Below are positions 3,309-15,336 of a DNA stretch of 21,295 nucleotides, one piece after another. Source of the DNA: a virus; the IMG/VR virus record IMGVR_UViG_3300025141_000928, positions 1 through 21,295 of that record. The stretch is one strand, 5' to 3'. The stretch's first letter is position 1; the number at the start of each line of letters is the position of its first letter. The position numbers and the translations under genes are program-made. The notes under the pieces were generated by a model. That model had not been told where the DNA came from. It made no database searches and worked only from the letters and a program-made list of their open reading frames with translations.

Positions 3309-3836
3309 ATGGCACAAGGATTTTGGTCAGACCCTCTAGTAGAGCCTAAAAGACAATATAGGTGGGTATTATATTTAGGCGGCATGCCAACTTGGATTAT
3401 TAAGACAGTTAAGAAGCCGTCATTCACTGTTACTGAGAGCCCTCATCAGTATTTGAATCATACGTTTTATTACCCTGCAAGAGTTCAGTGGAATACGATT
3501 GATATTACTTTGGCAGATCCTGTGGATCCCGATGCTTCAGATTCAATGTTGGCTCGTTTATTTGCTGCGGGCTATGAGTATCCTTTGGATGCGGCTAGTA
3601 CTACCACGGTTTCTAAAGTTAAAGCAAATTTTGCTTTAGGTGAAGTCAAAATTGTACAACTTGGAGCAGAAGGAGAGGCTGTAGAAACGTGGAGTTTGAC
3701 AAATTCTTTTATTACCGCTATTGATTTTGGGACTTTAGATTATGCCTCAGATGAAATGGTTAACATCTCTGCCACAATACGTTATGATTGGGCTGAGCTT
3801 GATGTCCCAGCCGGCCGAACAATCTCGCCGGGCTAA
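3309..3836 (+). CDS. Tail tube protein (gp19-like)
   Basis: This is the inner tail tube subunit that polymerises into the rigid channel for DNA ejection. It is 175 aa (T4 gp19 is 163). The N-terminal FWSDPLVEPKRQYRWVLYLGG stretch, a TVKKPSFTVTE segment with the usual basic residue and aromatic, the NHTFYYPARVQWNTIDITL strand pair and the C-terminal beta strand ending in ISATIRYDWAEL are typical of the T4-like tube fold. The ATG at 3309 has a strong ribosome site (AAGGGAGA, 3292-3299). It follows the sheath gene by 59 bases, an arrangement shared by nearly all myoviruses. It probably has its own late promoter as well as readthrough, which would suit a high-copy structural protein. Confidence 0.9.
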   Translation: MAQGFWSDPLVEPKRQYRWVLYLGGMPTWIIKTVKKPSFTVTESPHQYLNHTFYYPARVQWNTIDITLADPVDPDASDSMLARLFAAGYEYPLDAASTTTVSKVKANFALGEVKIVQLGAEGEAVETWSLTNSFITAIDFGTLDYASDEMVNISATIRYDWAELDVPAGRTISPG

Positions 3837-3860: not shown

Positions 3861-4721
3861 ATGACACAGAACAGAAACGAAGAGCGTATCGGCTCTATGC
3901 CCGATATCTCTTCGCCAGCACCCATTGCTGAGCAAATGGGCGCTTCATTTGATTTTTCAATTCCAACAGAATTAATTGAACTACCATCAAGGGGAATGTT
4001 TTATCCCGAAAACCATCCTTTGCGCGACAAAGAACACGTTGAAGTGCGCTACATGACTGCGAAGGATGAAGATACTTTAACAAATCGCAGCCTCATTCAA
4101 AAGGGGGTTGTCTTAGATCGGCTAATAAAAAATATTTTAGTTGATAAAACGATTAATGTTAGTTCTCTTTTGTTGGGCGATAAAAATGCTATTATTGTTG
4201 CTGCAAGATCAACAGGATATGGAAATATATACACCACACAGGTTACATGCCCGTCTTGCTTTGAAAACAGCGAACAAAGCTTTGATTTAAATAATCTAAA
4301 ATTGCAGTTCCCCGACAAAGAAAGGTTGGACAGCTTGGCTGTTACGAAAAATGATGATGACACATTTTCATTTACACTGCCGAAAACTAAAGCTGTGGTT
4401 AAAGCTAAATTATTGGCAGGCACAGACGAAAGCAAGCTTGAAAGGCTACAAGCCAACAAAAAGAAGAATAAGCTTCCTGAAACGCCAATAGTTGATCAAA
4501 TTAGGGCTTGTATAACAGCAGTTAATGGGCTTGCAGAGCCAGCAAACGTTAATAAATTTGTTGATGTTATGCCATTGTTTGATGGAAGATATTTTCGAAA
4601 AATTTATAATAAACTAATTCCAAATATTGATATGAGGCATAGTTTTCAATGTTCGCACTGTGATCACGAAGCAGGGGTGGAGGTGCCGCTCACCGCGGAC
4701 TTTTTTTGGCCTGACCGATGA
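3861..4721 (+). CDS. gp26-like baseplate hub / tail assembly protein with two CxxC pairs
   Basis: A 286-aa protein resembling the T4 baseplate (gp26-like) family. It has an ELPSRGMFYP motif near residue 40, a GD-N-AIIVAARSTGYG stretch (about 106-121), a CPSC pair at 130-133 and a CSHC pair at 264-267 that together could bind zinc, and a C-terminal ADFFWPDR. It has a good ribosome site (GAGGTAA) before ATG 3861. Its place between tube and tape measure is that of the tail assembly chaperones (lambda G/GT, P2 E/E', Mu 41-region). The last Phe-Phe-Trp codons contain a run of seven T from which ribosomes could slip into the downstream 63-codon extension. It may therefore act as a chaperone for the tape measure rather than as a structural hub protein. 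Family call fairly good; exact role inferred. Confidence 0.65.
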   Translation: MTQNRNEERIGSMPDISSPAPIAEQMGASFDFSIPTELIELPSRGMFYPENHPLRDKEHVEVRYMTAKDEDTLTNRSLIQKGVVLDRLIKNILVDKTINVSSLLLGDKNAIIVAARSTGYGNIYTTQVTCPSCFENSEQSFDLNNLKLQFPDKERLDSLAVTKNDDDTFSFTLPKTKAVVKAKLLAGTDESKLERLQANKKKNKLPETPIVDQIRACITAVNGLAEPANVNKFVDVMPLFDGRYFRKIYNKLIPNIDMRHSFQCSHCDHEAGVEVPLTADFFWPDR

Positions 4722-4899
4722 ATATATTGAAGCTGTCTATGAGCAGTTTTTTGCATTAAAATATCATGGCGGATGGAGTTTTGTCGAAGCGTATAATTTG
4801 CCAATCAAATTAAGGGCTTGGTTCATGCAGCGTCTGATCAAGCAAAAAGAAAGTGAAAACGAAGCTATAGAAAAAGCAAATAAAAAAAGTAGTAGATAA
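4660..4899 (+). CDS. Small ORF overlapping the gp26-like gene, probably expressed by frameshift (gp51-position tail assembly chaperone extension)
   Basis: The frame is open from a GTG at 4660, but that GTG has no ribosome site, and there is no ATG before the conserved-looking part (GLTDEYIEAVYEQFF, YHGGWSFVEAYNLP, LRAWFMQRLIKQ, then an acidic/basic helix). The only strong ribosome sequence (GGAGGT, 4679-4684) has no start codon in this frame at proper distance. The likely expression route is a +1 or -2 ribosomal slip on TTTTTTT (4701-4707) near the end of the gp26-like gene. That would yield a fusion of about 345 aa (282 + 63). The product is helical and Trp/aromatic-rich with a Lys/Glu-rich tail, as in tail assembly chaperone extensions. 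T4 has gene 51 in this position. Coding is likely; mechanism inferred. Confidence 0.6.
   Translation: MITKQGWRCRSPRTFFGLTDEYIEAVYEQFFALKYHGGWSFVEAYNLPIKLRAWFMQRLIKQKESENEAIEKANKKSSR
4701..4707 (+). promoter_or_regulatory. Candidate programmed frameshift site (T7 run)
   Basis: The codons TTT TTT TGG of the gp26-like gene form a run of seven T. A +1 or -2 slip here joins the frame of the 63-codon downstream ORF. A -1 slip meets a stop (TGA 4712-4714) after three codons. A Mu-type -2 shift would give the same frame. Confidence 0.5.
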
Positions 4900-5308: not shown

Positions 5309-7678
5309 ATGACAGATCCATCAACACTTACACCAGAACAAATACAAAAGATAAAAGCGCAAGTCGATAAAATTACGGACGGCTTTAAAGCTGCAGAAAC
5401 GGCTGTCGAAGATTTTGGCCAAAAGGCCGCCGAGGTCATGGCCAAGGCGACCAAGGAGGCCGAAGGCCTCAATAAAAATACGGTGACTTATGGCCAAACT
5501 ATGCGCGAAATTCAGTATACGATGGAAGCCCAAGAAAGAGTTCATAAAAATATAATTACGCAGTTGGAGACACAAATAAAAGCCGTTCAGGAAAGGACTA
5601 TCGGCGAAAAGAAGACTAAGGCCGAAGCCAAGGAGTTCGAAAAGGCGAAAAAGAAAGAACTTGTAGCGCTTGAAAAACAAAAGAGGATACAAGAGGACAT
5701 TTATGGCATTCAGAAAAAACGGCGGGACAACGAAAAAGAAGGTGTTAAAAATGCTGAAGATTTTCTAAGCGCTCTCGGGGTGGTTAAAAAGAATCAATTT
5801 GGTATTTTTGGAATACTTACAAAAACAACAGAACAGCAAGCCAAGTTCAAAAAAAGGATTACAGAATCAGTTAAATCCGGCGAAATGCTCGCCGGCGCCA
5901 TGAAGAAAGTGGCAGAAGGGGCAATGCAGCTAGCTGTTATGGGCATGAAAGGTGGTAGTCTTTTTGGCATTGATCTTCCCGGTATTGTTGGAGCAATTAA
6001 GGAATCGCTAGTTTTACCCGCAGAATTATATCGTACATACGGTGACATGGAAAGATACAAAAATATGATTGTGGAGAGTAGACAAGAATTGGCCATATGG
6101 GGTGTAACAGAAAAAGAAGCAGGCATGGCACTTGCAGAGCTTGCATCAACAATACCAGAATTTAATATGGCCAGCGTTAGTGCTCAGAAAGAAATGCTAG
6201 CCACCAGTACTGCACTTACTAAAATGGGGTTTGATCTAAAAACAACAGTTAAAACTCAAGAAAACTTAATTAAGACGCTGCGAATGGCCCCGAAAGAAGC
6301 AGCCAAATACACAAAGAGTTTGGCTGGTTTAAGTAAGCAAATGAAAGTTGGTAATAAGTTTTTCCAAGACATGCAAAACTCAATGGAACAACTGGCAGCT
6401 TTCACAAAAGATAAAGCAATAAAAGTTTTTGAAACAATGGCTACTAGAGCCCACGCTTTGGGTCTTGCGATTAATCAACTTTGGAAAACTACTGAAGGAT
6501 TCGAAACTTTTGCAAATGCGTCACAAAAAGTTGCAGAGTTCAATATTGCTCTTGGTGGGCCATATCTTAATACATTAAAGATGATGAAGGCCGCTCACAA
6601 TGAACCAATAAAAGTAATAGAACAAATGCAAGATGCTTTCGCCGCGTCTGGCAAGAGTTTGTCGGACATGTCACCCGCAATGGTAAAATATATGGCAAGC
6701 ACGATTGGTGTAAGCAAAGTTGAACTAAAAAGGATTATGGGCAGCAAAGCTGCGCTTAAAGAGTGGGCAGAACAACAGAAAAAGTCTGAAAAGCGGCAAG
6801 AAGACCTCAACAATATGGTACTAAAAGCACAAGATATTTTCATGGAGCTTAGTGCTGTAATCCGCGAAGTGTTTTTTTCAAATGGCGACTTTATTGAGTC
6901 TATGAAAAGCGCGGTCAGGGGCCTAGGCGATTGGATTAAAAACAATAAATGGCTAATTGAAACACTCATATCACTTTTTACACCGCCCGGCGGATTTATT
7001 GTTCTAGCAATCGCCGGCATCGTGAAATTGGGCTCAGTGTTATTTATGCTTAATCTGCAAATGATGGCTACTAGCGGCGGCACTATGGGCTTGGGCGGCG
7101 CCTTATCGAGCGTGTTCGCCGGCGCCGGCTTAAGTGTCACTTTGGCCGGGATTGCATCCATCGCCATGGCAATTGGCGGCATTGTCATGATTGGATACAC
7201 TGCAATTAGCGTTATTTCAGAACTGATGGCCGCCAAGACCAAACAAGAAAAGACGAAGGCCCGGGCCGGCGCCGGCGGCGCTGTTGTTGGTGCTATAATC
7301 GGCGGAGTGCTCGGCTCGGCTTTGGGGCCGGCCGGCACCGTCCTTGGTGCAGGCGCAGGCAGCATGATCGGCAAGTGGGCTGGCCAAGCCTTTGTTGATG
7401 ATGCCGAATTCAGCCCAGGCTCAGTGAAAGCAATTGTTACGAAAGGCGGCGAAGTCGCCATACCAAGTGCAATGGATACGGTAACCGCCGCAAAACAGCG
7501 AGCCGGCTCATCGGCTAGGACCGACGCGCTGCTGGAGAGGTTAGTTACGTTAACAGAAAAAAACTTAAATAAAAACACCACTATGGTGGTTTCCGGTAAA
7601 GTACTCGGCGAGATCGCTGATTCTCAACGCAACAAGAACGCCACCTATGGCCGACCGGGCACACCAATTGCCGTATAG
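5309..7678 (+). CDS. Tape measure protein
   Basis: This protein sets tail length and is threaded inside the tube until ejection. It is 789 aa. Residues about 10-150 are charged and heptad-like (Lys/Glu/Ala/Gln-rich coiled coil). The middle is helical. Residues about 547-640 are strongly hydrophobic and could span membranes several times. A Gly/Ala-rich segment follows (about 653-695, with many GCC-GGC codons), then a polar C-terminal part ending GRPGTPIAV. Long coiled coil plus hydrophobic patches just after tube and chaperone-like genes is the usual tape-measure signature. With the general rule of about 0.15 nm per residue the tail would be near 118 nm. T4 gp29 plays this role. A long antisense frame in 6595-7581 is only a shadow of the Gly/Ala-rich codons. 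Confidence 0.85.
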   Translation: MTDPSTLTPEQIQKIKAQVDKITDGFKAAETAVEDFGQKAAEVMAKATKEAEGLNKNTVTYGQTMREIQYTMEAQERVHKNIITQLETQIKAVQERTIGEKKTKAEAKEFEKAKKKELVALEKQKRIQEDIYGIQKKRRDNEKEGVKNAEDFLSALGVVKKNQFGIFGILTKTTEQQAKFKKRITESVKSGEMLAGAMKKVAEGAMQLAVMGMKGGSLFGIDLPGIVGAIKESLVLPAELYRTYGDMERYKNMIVESRQELAIWGVTEKEAGMALAELASTIPEFNMASVSAQKEMLATSTALTKMGFDLKTTVKTQENLIKTLRMAPKEAAKYTKSLAGLSKQMKVGNKFFQDMQNSMEQLAAFTKDKAIKVFETMATRAHALGLAINQLWKTTEGFETFANASQKVAEFNIALGGPYLNTLKMMKAAHNEPIKVIEQMQDAFAASGKSLSDMSPAMVKYMASTIGVSKVELKRIMGSKAALKEWAEQQKKSEKRQEDLNNMVLKAQDIFMELSAVIREVFFSNGDFIESMKSAVRGLGDWIKNNKWLIETLISLFTPPGGFIVLAIAGIVKLGSVLFMLNLQMMATSGGTMGLGGALSSVFAGAGLSVTLAGIASIAMAIGGIVMIGYTAISVISELMAAKTKQEKTKARAGAGGAVVGAIIGGVLGSALGPAGTVLGAGAGSMIGKWAGQAFVDDAEFSPGSVKAIVTKGGEVAIPSAMDTVTAAKQRAGSSARTDALLERLVTLTEKNLNKNTTMVVSGKVLGEIADSQRNKNATYGRPGTPIAV

Positions 7679-11978: not shown

Positions 11979-13319
11979 ATGGCGTATAGAACAGGAGATG
12001 AACAAAGTGCTATTGATCTTATTGTAAAAAGAATTGGCTATGATGTAGCAGTACCGCCTGTTCCGGGCATACAAAATTTTGAAAAAATTCTTAGATTTTA
12101 CGGACTTCAAGATGGCAATAATAATTTTATTATACCCAATCCTACTTTTATCAAGTATGTAAGCAATTCTGATACAGTTTTGGCATTTGATTTTGTTGCA
12201 AATGCTTTTCTTGATTTTCAAAAATTATATGTAGATATGCTGCAAGCTGGCAAAATTTCAAAAGAGTCTGTATATACAAATATAATTTTTGAACCTTTTG
12301 AGGGGTGGTATAACTTTGAAGAAGAATATCGTAATAATGTTAGGTTTCTTATAAAACAAATTAATAGTGTTTTTTTAAGCACGCATGAAGAACAGAAAAA
12401 GATTATAAACATAGACAAATATATTGAATCGTTTATGGGATTTTTCCCCTTAATGGAATCGCTTACAGTAACTAGGGCTAAAATGTTATCTAGTGTATTA
12501 ACAAAAAGAAGTGCATCCGGCTTAGTAATAAAATTAGCAGATGAACAAGAAAATGATGATCAGGTTAAATGGGAAAAGTATTTAAATGATCCAAACTTTA
12601 AAGCAGTCGTAACGCTTGCGCAACAAACTGGATTTTATGTAAGTAAAAATTCTCCATGGACTTTGGTTGCAAATTTGGGTTCGCCAGTGATGAAATTTTA
12701 TATGCGCTTAAATGATTATGAAAAGGAAACAGAAGAGATTTTTAAAAATTTATTTTCGAAAGAACAGCTAAAATATGCTCAAAAAAATGCTGTATTGCCC
12801 TCTGAGACTGCCGATAAATTAAAAGAGCAAGCACAAATCGCCGCGAAAAAGAAAATTATGTCAACGACGAAGTTGCCTATAGAAAAAATATTTAAGAAAT
12901 ATTATTTTGAAACAGCCATGGCCGATTTTAATACTGTCAAAAACATGTTTTATTTTGGATATACTTCATTTTTGATAACAAATCCAGAAGTTAGAGAGAT
13001 AAAACGAGATGAGCATCTTGCTGACCATGCGGCGGGTGGTTACAAGGTTCGCCGGTATTGTCCAAAAGAACAGCAGACCATCCAAGTATACAAATCAAGA
13101 GAATATATTTCTGAAAATGGTTATAACAAAAAATTTGATGATTATTTTTTCTTAAAAATATTTCTTTTTCTTAAAAATTATGAAAATGGTAAAATATTTT
13201 CAGAAAATCGCCTCAAAGTACACCTTAAAAGTATTTCAAAGATCAAGAAAAGAATTGACACATCCGCAGCAATAATGTATATTAATAGTGTGTTTAAGGG
13301 ACTAGAGAGCGTTGCGTGA
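11979..13319 (+). CDS. Unrecognised protein at the end of the structural module
   Basis: 446 aa, not recognised. It is predicted largely alpha-helical, with many aromatic and Lys residues and no Cys until YCPKEQQ near residue 360. It is more A+T-rich than the tail genes before it. The ATG at 11979 follows AAGGAA (11965-11970). It is the last gene before the polymerase, and its stop overlaps the GTG start of that gene by three bases (GTGA). Its final 65 bases also contain a sigma70-type promoter for the polymerase. Position at the end of the tail operon suggests a virion or virion-assembly protein, but nothing in the sequence shows a specific role. Confidence 0.75.
   Translation: MAYRTGDEQSAIDLIVKRIGYDVAVPPVPGIQNFEKILRFYGLQDGNNNFIIPNPTFIKYVSNSDTVLAFDFVANAFLDFQKLYVDMLQAGKISKESVYTNIIFEPFEGWYNFEEEYRNNVRFLIKQINSVFLSTHEEQKKIINIDKYIESFMGFFPLMESLTVTRAKMLSSVLTKRSASGLVIKLADEQENDDQVKWEKYLNDPNFKAVVTLAQQTGFYVSKNSPWTLVANLGSPVMKFYMRLNDYEKETEEIFKNLFSKEQLKYAQKNAVLPSETADKLKEQAQIAAKKKIMSTTKLPIEKIFKKYYFETAMADFNTVKNMFYFGYTSFLITNPEVREIKRDEHLADHAAGGYKVRRYCPKEQQTIQVYKSREYISENGYNKKFDDYFFLKIFLFLKNYENGKIFSENRLKVHLKSISKIKKRIDTSAAIMYINSVFKGLESVA
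13255..13283 (+). promoter_or_regulatory. Sigma70-type promoter for the polymerase / FtsZ-like operon
   Basis: A perfect -35 TTGACA (13255-13260), a 17-base spacer and -10 TATATT (13278-13283) lie 33-60 bases upstream of the polymerase GTG, within the end of the preceding coding region. It marks the boundary between the structural and replication modules. Confidence 0.65.
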
Positions 13320-14491
13320 TTTTTCAATCTTTAGATAAAAAAAATAAATGTAAAGATATCTACTGTGGTGGCAAGATTTACAACAAGACTCCAGAAGATT
13401 TAACTGGTACGTGGGATTATGTTGATGTGCCCCACAATGTAGAATATGCAAAGTTGTATTGTGGCGGCCAATCCATTGAAGATGTTTGCCCCGATCGCTT
13501 AAAGGGACAATGGCTCAACGCAAGTCAGAAGCTTAAAGCGTATTTAAATTCTTTTATGCAAGCAAAAATTTCACTAGAAGAGCACTGTTTTTATGACTTA
13601 GTGCCACAACATTTTCTTTTGGATTTTTTCGAAGTGAAGAATGAAATAACAAAACATGTTTTTGACAATTGTGAGCGTCCTGAAAATTATGATTTTTTGT
13701 TGCAACTTACAAAAATTGTGGAAGACATTAAAAACAGACCTTTAAAGCTAAAAACGAGCAATTTAAACAACTTGGGGCATCAACTAGCAACTAGAAACTT
13801 TTTAAGGCGTCTAAAAGGAGCAAAAAAGCGCGTCAAATATAATATTTTTGGGACGAAAACAGGCAGGCTAACAACAGAGCCAAAATCTTTTCCTATTTTG
13901 ACGCTAAAAAAGGAATATCGTACCATTTTAGAACCAAATAACGATCTGTATGTGGAATTGGACTTTAATGCTGCTGAGCTAAGGACGCTTTTGGCTTTGT
14001 GCGACAAAGAACAACCAAAAGAAGATATACATGAGTGGAATGCTAAAAATGTATTTCGCGAGTCGCGGAAAGAGGCCAAAGAGCGTATTTTTGCTTGGCT
14101 GTATAATCCAGATTCTAAAGATTATTTAGCCAACAGAGCTTATGATAGAACAAGCATTAAAGAAAAGTATTGGGATGGTAAAATAGTAACAACGCCATTT
14201 GGCAGAAAAATAGAGGCGGATGAGTTTCATGCTTTAAACTACTTGATTCAAAGCACAACGGCAGACATGGTATTGCGGCAGTTGATTAAAGTTTATGAAT
14301 TGCTCAAAGAGCATAAGTCGCATGTAGCATTTGTGATACATGATTCGCTGGTGATCGATCTAGCGAAAGAAGACAAACACCTGTTGGAGAACATTTTTAA
14401 TGTTTTTTCGAAAACTGACTTGGGCGAATTCTTAATTTCAGTTAAGGTCGGCAAAAATTTTGGTCAAATGAAGGAAATAAAATGGACATAA
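13316..14491 (+). CDS. Compact family A DNA polymerase lacking an exonuclease domain
   Basis: 391 aa. The polymerase core motifs of E. coli Pol I family are in order: TGRLTTEPKSFPIL (182-195); motif A DFNAAELR (D216, E221, matching D705/E710); motif B R251, K255, F259 and Y263 with the exact 4-residue spacing of R754/K758/F762/Y766; PFGRK (294-298); Q312 in IQSTTAD; motif C IHDSLV, where D343 matches D882 but the next Glu is Ser344. The 35-residue gap between motif A and motif B is shorter than usual. There is no 3'-5' exonuclease domain. The first 70 residues instead hold a tandem YCGG...P..L.G.W repeat with Cys at 12, 17, 49 and 58. It starts at GTG 13316 overlapping the previous stop, and overlaps the next gene by 10 bases. 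T4 relatives normally use family B gp43. Rhodothermus phage RM378 also has a split family A polymerase. Activity is plausible; whether it is the replicase is unknown. Confidence 0.85.
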   Translation: MIFQSLDKKNKCKDIYCGGKIYNKTPEDLTGTWDYVDVPHNVEYAKLYCGGQSIEDVCPDRLKGQWLNASQKLKAYLNSFMQAKISLEEHCFYDLVPQHFLLDFFEVKNEITKHVFDNCERPENYDFLLQLTKIVEDIKNRPLKLKTSNLNNLGHQLATRNFLRRLKGAKKRVKYNIFGTKTGRLTTEPKSFPILTLKKEYRTILEPNNDLYVELDFNAAELRTLLALCDKEQPKEDIHEWNAKNVFRESRKEAKERIFAWLYNPDSKDYLANRAYDRTSIKEKYWDGKIVTTPFGRKIEADEFHALNYLIQSTTADMVLRQLIKVYELLKEHKSHVAFVIHDSLVIDLAKEDKHLLENIFNVFSKTDLGEFLISVKVGKNFGQMKEIKWT

Positions 14492-15336
14492 TTGGATTTG
14501 GCGGCGCCGGTTGCAACGTTGCAAAAACATTTAAAGATTATTCTCAATATAAGATTCATTATATAGACGTTGGCCTTCGCGGCGAGGACAACTATTCTCT
14601 TTTAAGAGCCAACACCATGGAAGAAGCAGAAACAAATGTGCCAAAATTTTCAAAACTTGTTAAAAAACTAAAAGGTGAAGTTGTTTTTATATGTGCTGGT
14701 GCCGGCATAAGCAGTGGTTCAATTTTAGGAACTTTAGAACAATTCAAGCACTTACCGGTAACTGTAATCTATATTAAGCCAGATTATGATCTTTTGGGCG
14801 AAAAAGAAAAACAAAGAGAAAGGGTTGTTCATGGAATATTACAACAATTTGCTAGAACGGGATTGCTCAAACGCATGTATTTGTTTGATAATACAAAAAT
14901 AGCGGAGATGCTGGGCGGGCTTTCGATAGTTGAATACCACCCTAAAATCAATCAAATGATCAGTAACTCTTTTCACATGTTGAATTATTTTAAAAATACA
15001 GATTCTATTATGACAAACGTTTCAGACCCTCAAGAAATTAACAGAATATCAACAGTTGGGGTTTACAATTTTGAGGAAGAGGCCGAAAAATATTTTTATG
15101 ACATTGCAAATCCGCGAGAAAAGCATTTTTATTTTGCTTTTAATGAAGAGACGCTAAATAAGGAAAAAAACCTTTTAAGTAAAATAAGTGAACAAATAAA
15201 AAGTGCTGGACAACCTGAGTTTACTGCTGTATCATATGATATAACGGCGACGACATATGAAGAAAATTTCGCATATATCGAAGCTCATACAAACTTCATT
15301 CAGGGCGAAAAAGTGGTTGACAAAAGCTCAGAATAG
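14482..15336 (+). CDS. Divergent FtsZ/tubulin-like GTPase-fold protein
   Basis: 284 aa. The N-terminus IIGFGGAGCNVA (3-14) matches the FtsZ nucleotide-binding T1 loop. FICAGAGISSGS (69-80) aligns with the GGGTG(S/T)G signature (T4 loop) but in degenerate form. LLGEKEKQRERVVHGILQQ (about 104-122) and LFDNTKI (134-140) match the following FtsZ/tubulin elements (F.FEG..R...A..GI..L and the N-D base-contact region). The catalytic T7 loop, normally N-x-D-x-x-D/E, is not recognisable (the region around 180-196 reads EINRISTVGVYNF). The C-terminal domain is short and there is no FtsZ-style tail. It starts at ATG 14482 with AAGGAA 5 bases before it, 10 bases inside the polymerase gene, so the two are translationally coupled. 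Fold fairly sure; GTP binding likely; polymerisation and hydrolysis open. Confidence 0.7.
   Translation: MDIIGFGGAGCNVAKTFKDYSQYKIHYIDVGLRGEDNYSLLRANTMEEAETNVPKFSKLVKKLKGEVVFICAGAGISSGSILGTLEQFKHLPVTVIYIKPDYDLLGEKEKQRERVVHGILQQFARTGLLKRMYLFDNTKIAEMLGGLSIVEYHPKINQMISNSFHMLNYFKNTDSIMTNVSDPQEINRISTVGVYNFEEEAEKYFYDIANPREKHFYFAFNEETLNKEKNLLSKISEQIKSAGQPEFTAVSYDITATTYEENFAYIEAHTNFIQGEKVVDKSSE

Follow-up and report, generated by a model that had tools for sequence, protein, structure and literature searches.

A putative T4-type tail assembly chaperone gene predicted to yield two products by +1 ribosomal slippage on UUU_Y

The locus described here raises the question of whether a phage gene resembling T4 gp26, whose end overlaps a small open reading frame, is read in two lengths, and if so, how ribosomes pass from one frame to the other. 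Chaperone pairs made by frameshifting are a general feature of long-tailed phages, and a review describes them as widely conserved 'except T4' (PMC5009743). The material analysed was one virus record of 21,295 bases (the window), in which the + strand carries in order the tail sheath, tail tube, gp26-like gene, +1-frame small ORF, a 110-aa ORF and the tape measure. The initial annotation had placed the pair between tube and tape measure; this gene order bears it out, and the gp26-like gene with its extension thus lies in the interval characteristic of G/GT-type chaperones. From comparison with related sequences, we propose that the locus very probably encodes a T4-type tail assembly chaperone made in two lengths through +1 ribosomal slippage on UUU_Y. 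The features concerned are listed in Table 1. Elsewhere in the window, a 284-aa protein (14482-15336) has glycine-rich motifs (GGAGCNV and GAGISSGSILGTL) and appears FtsZ/tubulin-like by eye, and Pfam and PHROG searches with it gave no match. Positions 13316-14491 hold the C-terminal part of a family A DNA polymerase as a 391-aa ORF starting from GTG, which may represent a split polymerase.

Table 1. Coordinates of the features of the chaperone locus in the window
Feature	Position	Strand	Basis or remark
Tail tube gene	3309..3836	+	phrog_4542 tail tube, E 1.5e-20
gp26-like gene, putative short chaperone form (TAC-N)	3861..4721	+	ATG, 286 aa, PF12322
Predicted frameshift product (TAC-NC), 345 aa	3861..4899	+	by inference
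GTG near overlap, in frame with extension	4660..4662	+	GTG at same place in 10/72 clusters
GGAGGTG within G-rich tract upstream of slip site	4679..4685	+	synonymous bias across relatives
GAC codon preceding T run	4698..4700	+	C-ending bias among relatives
Putative slip site TTT-TTT-TGG	4701..4709	+	UUU then U/C in 72/72 +1 clusters
+1-frame extension (C-terminal or T domain, putative gp51-C type)	4702..4899	+	65 aa including two Phe
Frame-0 stop TGA ending short form	4719..4721	+	sequence
Tape measure gene	5309..7678	+	phrog_167 tape measure, E 7e-6

The 3' end of the gp26-like gene reads GAC (4698) TTT (4701) TTT (4704) TGG CCT GAC CGA TGA (4719-4721), and the +1 reading of the same stretch is TTT TTT GGC CTG ACC GAT GAA TAT. 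The small ORF was observed to overlap the end of this gene as first annotated: the frame that contains GGC (4708) and runs to a stop at 4897-4899 is +1 (equivalently -2) relative to the gp26-like frame and is open from 4636. The ORF comprises 63 codons, reaches 59 codons beyond the gp26 stop, and when the two frames are joined at the T run the product is 345 aa, the length that had been estimated. In the 70 nt before the gp26 stop, GTG 4660 is the sole in-frame ATG, GTG or TTG listed; on comparison with relatives it looks like a stray codon and is not a credible start. Compared with two near relatives, L003 and L006, the extension of the window differs in a 1:2:3 codon-position ratio of 6:1:15 and 7:1:19, counted in the +1 frame, and it is therefore under protein-level selection in this frame.

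The gp26-like protein was found to be a member of PF12322 (T4_baseplate), scoring 55.3 bits against a curated cut-off of 24.5, and it matched phrog_150 with an E value of 8e-17 over profile positions 11-233 of 282. It contains two CxxC pairs, which are zinc-ribbon-like, and its N domain is of the T4 gp26 type, unlike lambda G. The gp26-like part and the extension were modelled as two separate structures. Among PDB entries, the gp26-like model (pLDDT 86) matched the HK97 tail assembly chaperone 2OB9 best, though weakly (Z 5.5, rmsd 5.3, 89 residues), and Foldseek gave no match for this model at E <= 0.001 (2OB9 E 4.6); the modelled likeness to the HK97 chaperone is suggestive only. Since the family is named 'baseplate hub' in PHROG and GenBank, the frameshift might occur and yet give a structural baseplate-hub protein instead of a chaperone. 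We consider this unlikely: a chaperone is favoured by the location between tube and tape measure and the two-form design, by the fold, which weakly matches that of the HK97 chaperone, and by the work of 2022, as cited in PMC10885494, in which the chaperone genes of T4-like phages were identified.

The extension was predicted to form three helices, with a mean pLDDT of 91. T4 gp26 (208 aa) and gp51 (249 aa) each match the whole length of the PF12322 profile, which is consistent with the two being the T4-like chaperone genes, as Vladimirov et al. are said to have reported in 2022. T4 gp51 has a C-terminal surplus of 48 residues where the window extension would sit. The phrog_150 profile covers this gp51-type tail (positions 235-282). 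It is matched within positions 206-282 by the short ORFs that occupy the shifted frame in P-SSM2, S-PM2, HTVC008M and phiM12; the one in P-SSM2 is annotated as gp51, and the annotation of the small ORF of KVP40 notes similarity to the gp51 C-terminus. With the joined product of the window the phrog_150 match ends at 235, and in a direct profile comparison with T4 gp51 the window extension fell at the expected place (209-245) without reaching significance, the distance being too great. Based on these relatives, it would be reasonable to regard the window extension as a putative gp51-type C-terminal domain. The gp26/gp51-type pair of the initial annotation is best read as a gp26-type N domain plus a putative gp51-type C-terminal domain, not as two whole gp26 and gp51 homologues.

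A second family resembles the extension. Against DUF6760 (PF20546) the window extension scored 17.5 bits, below the cut-off of 27, and is not a member, and 24 of 44 relatives matched DUF6760 at E <= 0.1 (best 8e-5); by sequence, then, the window extension resembles DUF6760 below the cut-off. In contractile-tail loci of Bacteroidota and Pseudomonadota, gp26-like and DUF6760-like domains were observed in one ORF. The fused ORF L236:2977-3732 directly follows the sheath and tube, with both PF12322 and DUF6760 above their cut-offs, and L237 and L241 carry similar fusions; few matches above the cut-off were obtained in the DUF6760 searches of these two phyla. The fused bacterial ORFs support reading the window's two ORFs as one long form. 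A separate bacterial injection-type locus (L235:647-1194, - strand) has a short gp26-like gene and, after it in the -1 frame, a DUF6760 ORF that contains no ATG, GTG or TTG; GGGGG lies at the junction. This is a single case of a possible chaperone frameshift in such a locus.

In viral contigs, phage records and bacterial genomes, scanning found 192 loci with a readable gp26-like end, which fell into 78 clusters at 80% protein identity; the clusters share descent, and cluster counts therefore overstate independent events. In all 192 loci a shifted frame is open for at least 40 codons beyond the gp26 stop (+1 in 184, -1 in 8), and the remaining shifted frame usually has far fewer open codons. 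The extension lies in the +1 frame in 72 of the 78 clusters, and it is conserved in an alignment of 44 sequences. The initial annotation had pointed to a conserved slippery run and missing starts as features to look for in relatives, and both were found. UUU followed by U or C occurs at the same two codons in every one of the 72 +1 clusters: 50 have TTT-TTT-TGG-CC, nine TTT-CTT-TGG and six TTC-TTT-TGG, while each of the remaining forms, UUU_CGU among them, occurs in one cluster. Seventeen of the 72 have no ATG, GTG or TTG at all from the preceding in-frame stop to the conserved domain. TGG is rare in the gp26 family: outside the slip site, the gp26 genes of the 72 clusters use it 14 times in total. 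Annotations of these phages enter the extension as a separate ORF, as a truncated ORF or not at all.

The TTT-TTT-TGG of the window, taken by itself, would also allow a -2 shift or transcriptional slippage. A Mu-like -2 slip of the ribosome on the T run, initially offered beside +1, would lead into the same frame with one extra residue; phage Mu provides a precedent (PMC5009743), and in the window, as in most relatives, T7 permits re-pairing of UUU at -2. At 18 of the 72 +1 clusters, however, the first or second site codon is TTC, CTT or CTA, and there -2 re-pairing fails while the frame relation is still kept. The forms TTC-TTT-TGG, TTT-CTT-TGG and TTT-CTA fit +1 only; a -2 slip is on this evidence very unlikely. 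The T7 run present at the site in most relatives might equally cause RNA polymerase to add or drop a base, giving mRNAs of mixed frame. Such a run alone carries little meaning, because seven T7 runs occur on the + strand of the window, six of them besides the slip site, and the arrangement persists in variants with no more than 3-4 T in a row (TTTCTTTGG, TTCTTTTGG, TTTCTATGG), which leaves transcriptional slippage with scarcely any probability. Slippage of the ribosome by +1 is best supported, because re-pairing at -2 fails at the site variants, where no long T run is available to a slipping RNA polymerase either.

Hardly credible, and the least probable of all, is independent translation of the small ORF, whether from GTG 4660, from an unconventional codon (CTG 4711, for example) or through reinitiation past the gp26 stop. 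In its favour, a GTG is available in the window, and in the cyanophages and KVP40 the annotation treats the counterpart as a small gene of its own. The wholly startless clusters speak against it, ATG is absent from 47 of the 72 +1 clusters, such upstream starts as exist differ in position, and relatives have CTA or CTC in place of CTG 4711; the conserved UUU_Y and the avoidance of a preceding T (below) would also be left unexplained. An ATG of the extension's own, which the initial annotation had named as evidence against a frameshift, was observed in only two of the scanned clusters (L186 and L191), a few bases past the gp26 stop (3706), and in both the UUU codon at the site is absent. These two count in favour of independent translation, and with UUU lost and an own ATG present they can also serve as natural controls for +1 slippage on UUU_Y.

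The base immediately before the T run bears on the direction of the slip. Codon choice at this place would be expected to follow the habit of the gene, because the +1 frame is unread upstream of the slip. In the +1 clusters we observed a departure from this habit: Asp directly 5' of the two Phe codons is GAC in 20 cases and GAT in none (elsewhere 355 versus 975), Asn is AAC in 12 and AAT in none (elsewhere 324 versus 665), and Ser is AGC by 5 to 0. Pyrimidine-ending codons before the run have C as third base in 44 of 45 cases in the +1 lineages (log10 P about -23 given per-locus usage), the sole exception among +1 clusters being L202. A T before the run would form T_TTT_TTY, the classic -1 heptamer. 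In the window, the third-base C of GAC at 4698..4700 keeps the run from forming T_TTT_TTT, such a -1 heptamer.

The lineages with the extension in the -1 frame show the reverse. With the split cases L186 and L191 set aside, all ten carry T before the run (T_TTT_TTY): Pseudomonas phage Paride, Agrobacterium phage Atu_ph07, L172, L009/L010, P-SSM2, S-PM2, HTVC008M, phiM12, KVP40 and RaK2. The association of T before the run with extension frame had a Fisher P of 5e-12, uncorrected for phylogeny or shared descent. Within the clade of the window itself, the single cluster L009/L010 has a -1 extension together with GAT preceding the run, a combination compatible with a possible recent switch of direction. 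In the -1 phages that have an own ATG for the extension, the slip is presumed only. Taken together, it seems rather likely that one T4-type chaperone family switches between +1 and -1 on a near-identical U-run, that the preceding base marks the direction, and that selection purges T in +1 lineages. If this is true, a preceding T would give the X_XXY_YYZ heptamer and -1, any other base would give UUU_Y and +1, and these phages would provide a natural series in which a single base may set the direction of slippage.

How might the two forms be made? Phe-tRNA on UUU is able to re-pair with UUU or UUC one base on. We hypothesise that the majority of ribosomes would read the gp26-like gene to its TGA, giving the 286-aa short form. 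In a fraction of them, peptidyl-tRNA(Phe) on UUU, with the rare TGG next, would re-pair one base 3' on UUU, and these ribosomes would enter the +1 frame at GGC and produce the 345-aa form with a three-helix gp51-type C-terminal domain. As in lambda G/GT, coating of the tape measure may fall to the short form and recruitment of tube subunits to the long form. We infer the occurrence and rate of slippage, the exact slip codon and the chaperone role; the first and second UUU are indistinguishable as slip codon at most sites.

UUU_Ynn is especially prone to a +1 shift in bacteria, and tail genes are known that frameshift with no stimulator (PMC5009743). When the 81 nt past the site were folded for 12 loci, only two had z < -2 and no downstream stimulatory structure was shared, which agrees with those other tail genes. 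Since no conserved downstream RNA structure was found, frameshift efficiency may be low. Upstream, between -33 and -13 from the slip site (4668-4688 in the window, and in relatives), there is a synonymous excess of G (GAG over GAA, CCG over CCA or CCT) forming a Shine-Dalgarno-like tract, with no start codon at a suitable distance from it.

The initial annotation had held that frameshifting is not generally recognised for gp26/gp51-type pairs. This is partly outdated: the T4-like tail assembly chaperone genes were identified by Vladimirov et al. in 2022, according to the reference in PMC10885494 and PMC12846349, and the title cited there proposes a mechanism other than frameshifting. A statement in PMC12846349 credits the same authors with poly-T -1 signals in T4-like phages. 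In the literature searched, there was no report of the +1 UUU_Y site, of its spread or of a link between preceding base and direction. What appears to be new here is the +1 UUU_Y variant, its spread over uncultured and several cultured phages, and the link of the preceding base to direction. T4-type relatives, including the cultured Microcystis phage Mel-JY01, Flavobacterium phage immuto, Bacillus phage SP-15 and Listeria phage LIS04, appear to frameshift, which suggests that the two-gene arrangement of T4 is a special case. Annotators could restore the missing part of the gene in such phages.

The arrangement shares with lambda G/GT, and with P2, Mu and others, the position between tube and tape measure, a short and (here by prediction) a frameshift-extended form, and an extension without an independent start; it differs in that lambda shifts -1 on another site, whereas here the predicted shift is +1 on UUU_Y. 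In T4 the two forms come from two genes, gp26 and gp51, on opposite strands, and here they would come from one gene and a shifted frame. The cyanophages, the Pelagiphage, KVP40, phiM12 and RaK2 have the same two domains in overlapping or abutting frames with a U-run at the junction, but the frame is -1 and the site T_TTT_TTY, and in several of them the small ORF has an ATG. Outside tail genes, the likeness is to the RF2 (prfB) site CUU_U and the influenza PA-X site UUU_CGU, where a pyrimidine codon in the P site slips +1 onto UUU or UUC. Here the A-site codon is usually TGG, neither a stop nor CGU, and no Shine-Dalgarno of the RF2 kind was seen at 3 nt before the slip site. A prfB-like CUU_UGG occurs in nine of our clusters and a PA-X-like UUU_CGU in one, and the +1 codon GGC is shared with the yeast Ty1 site.
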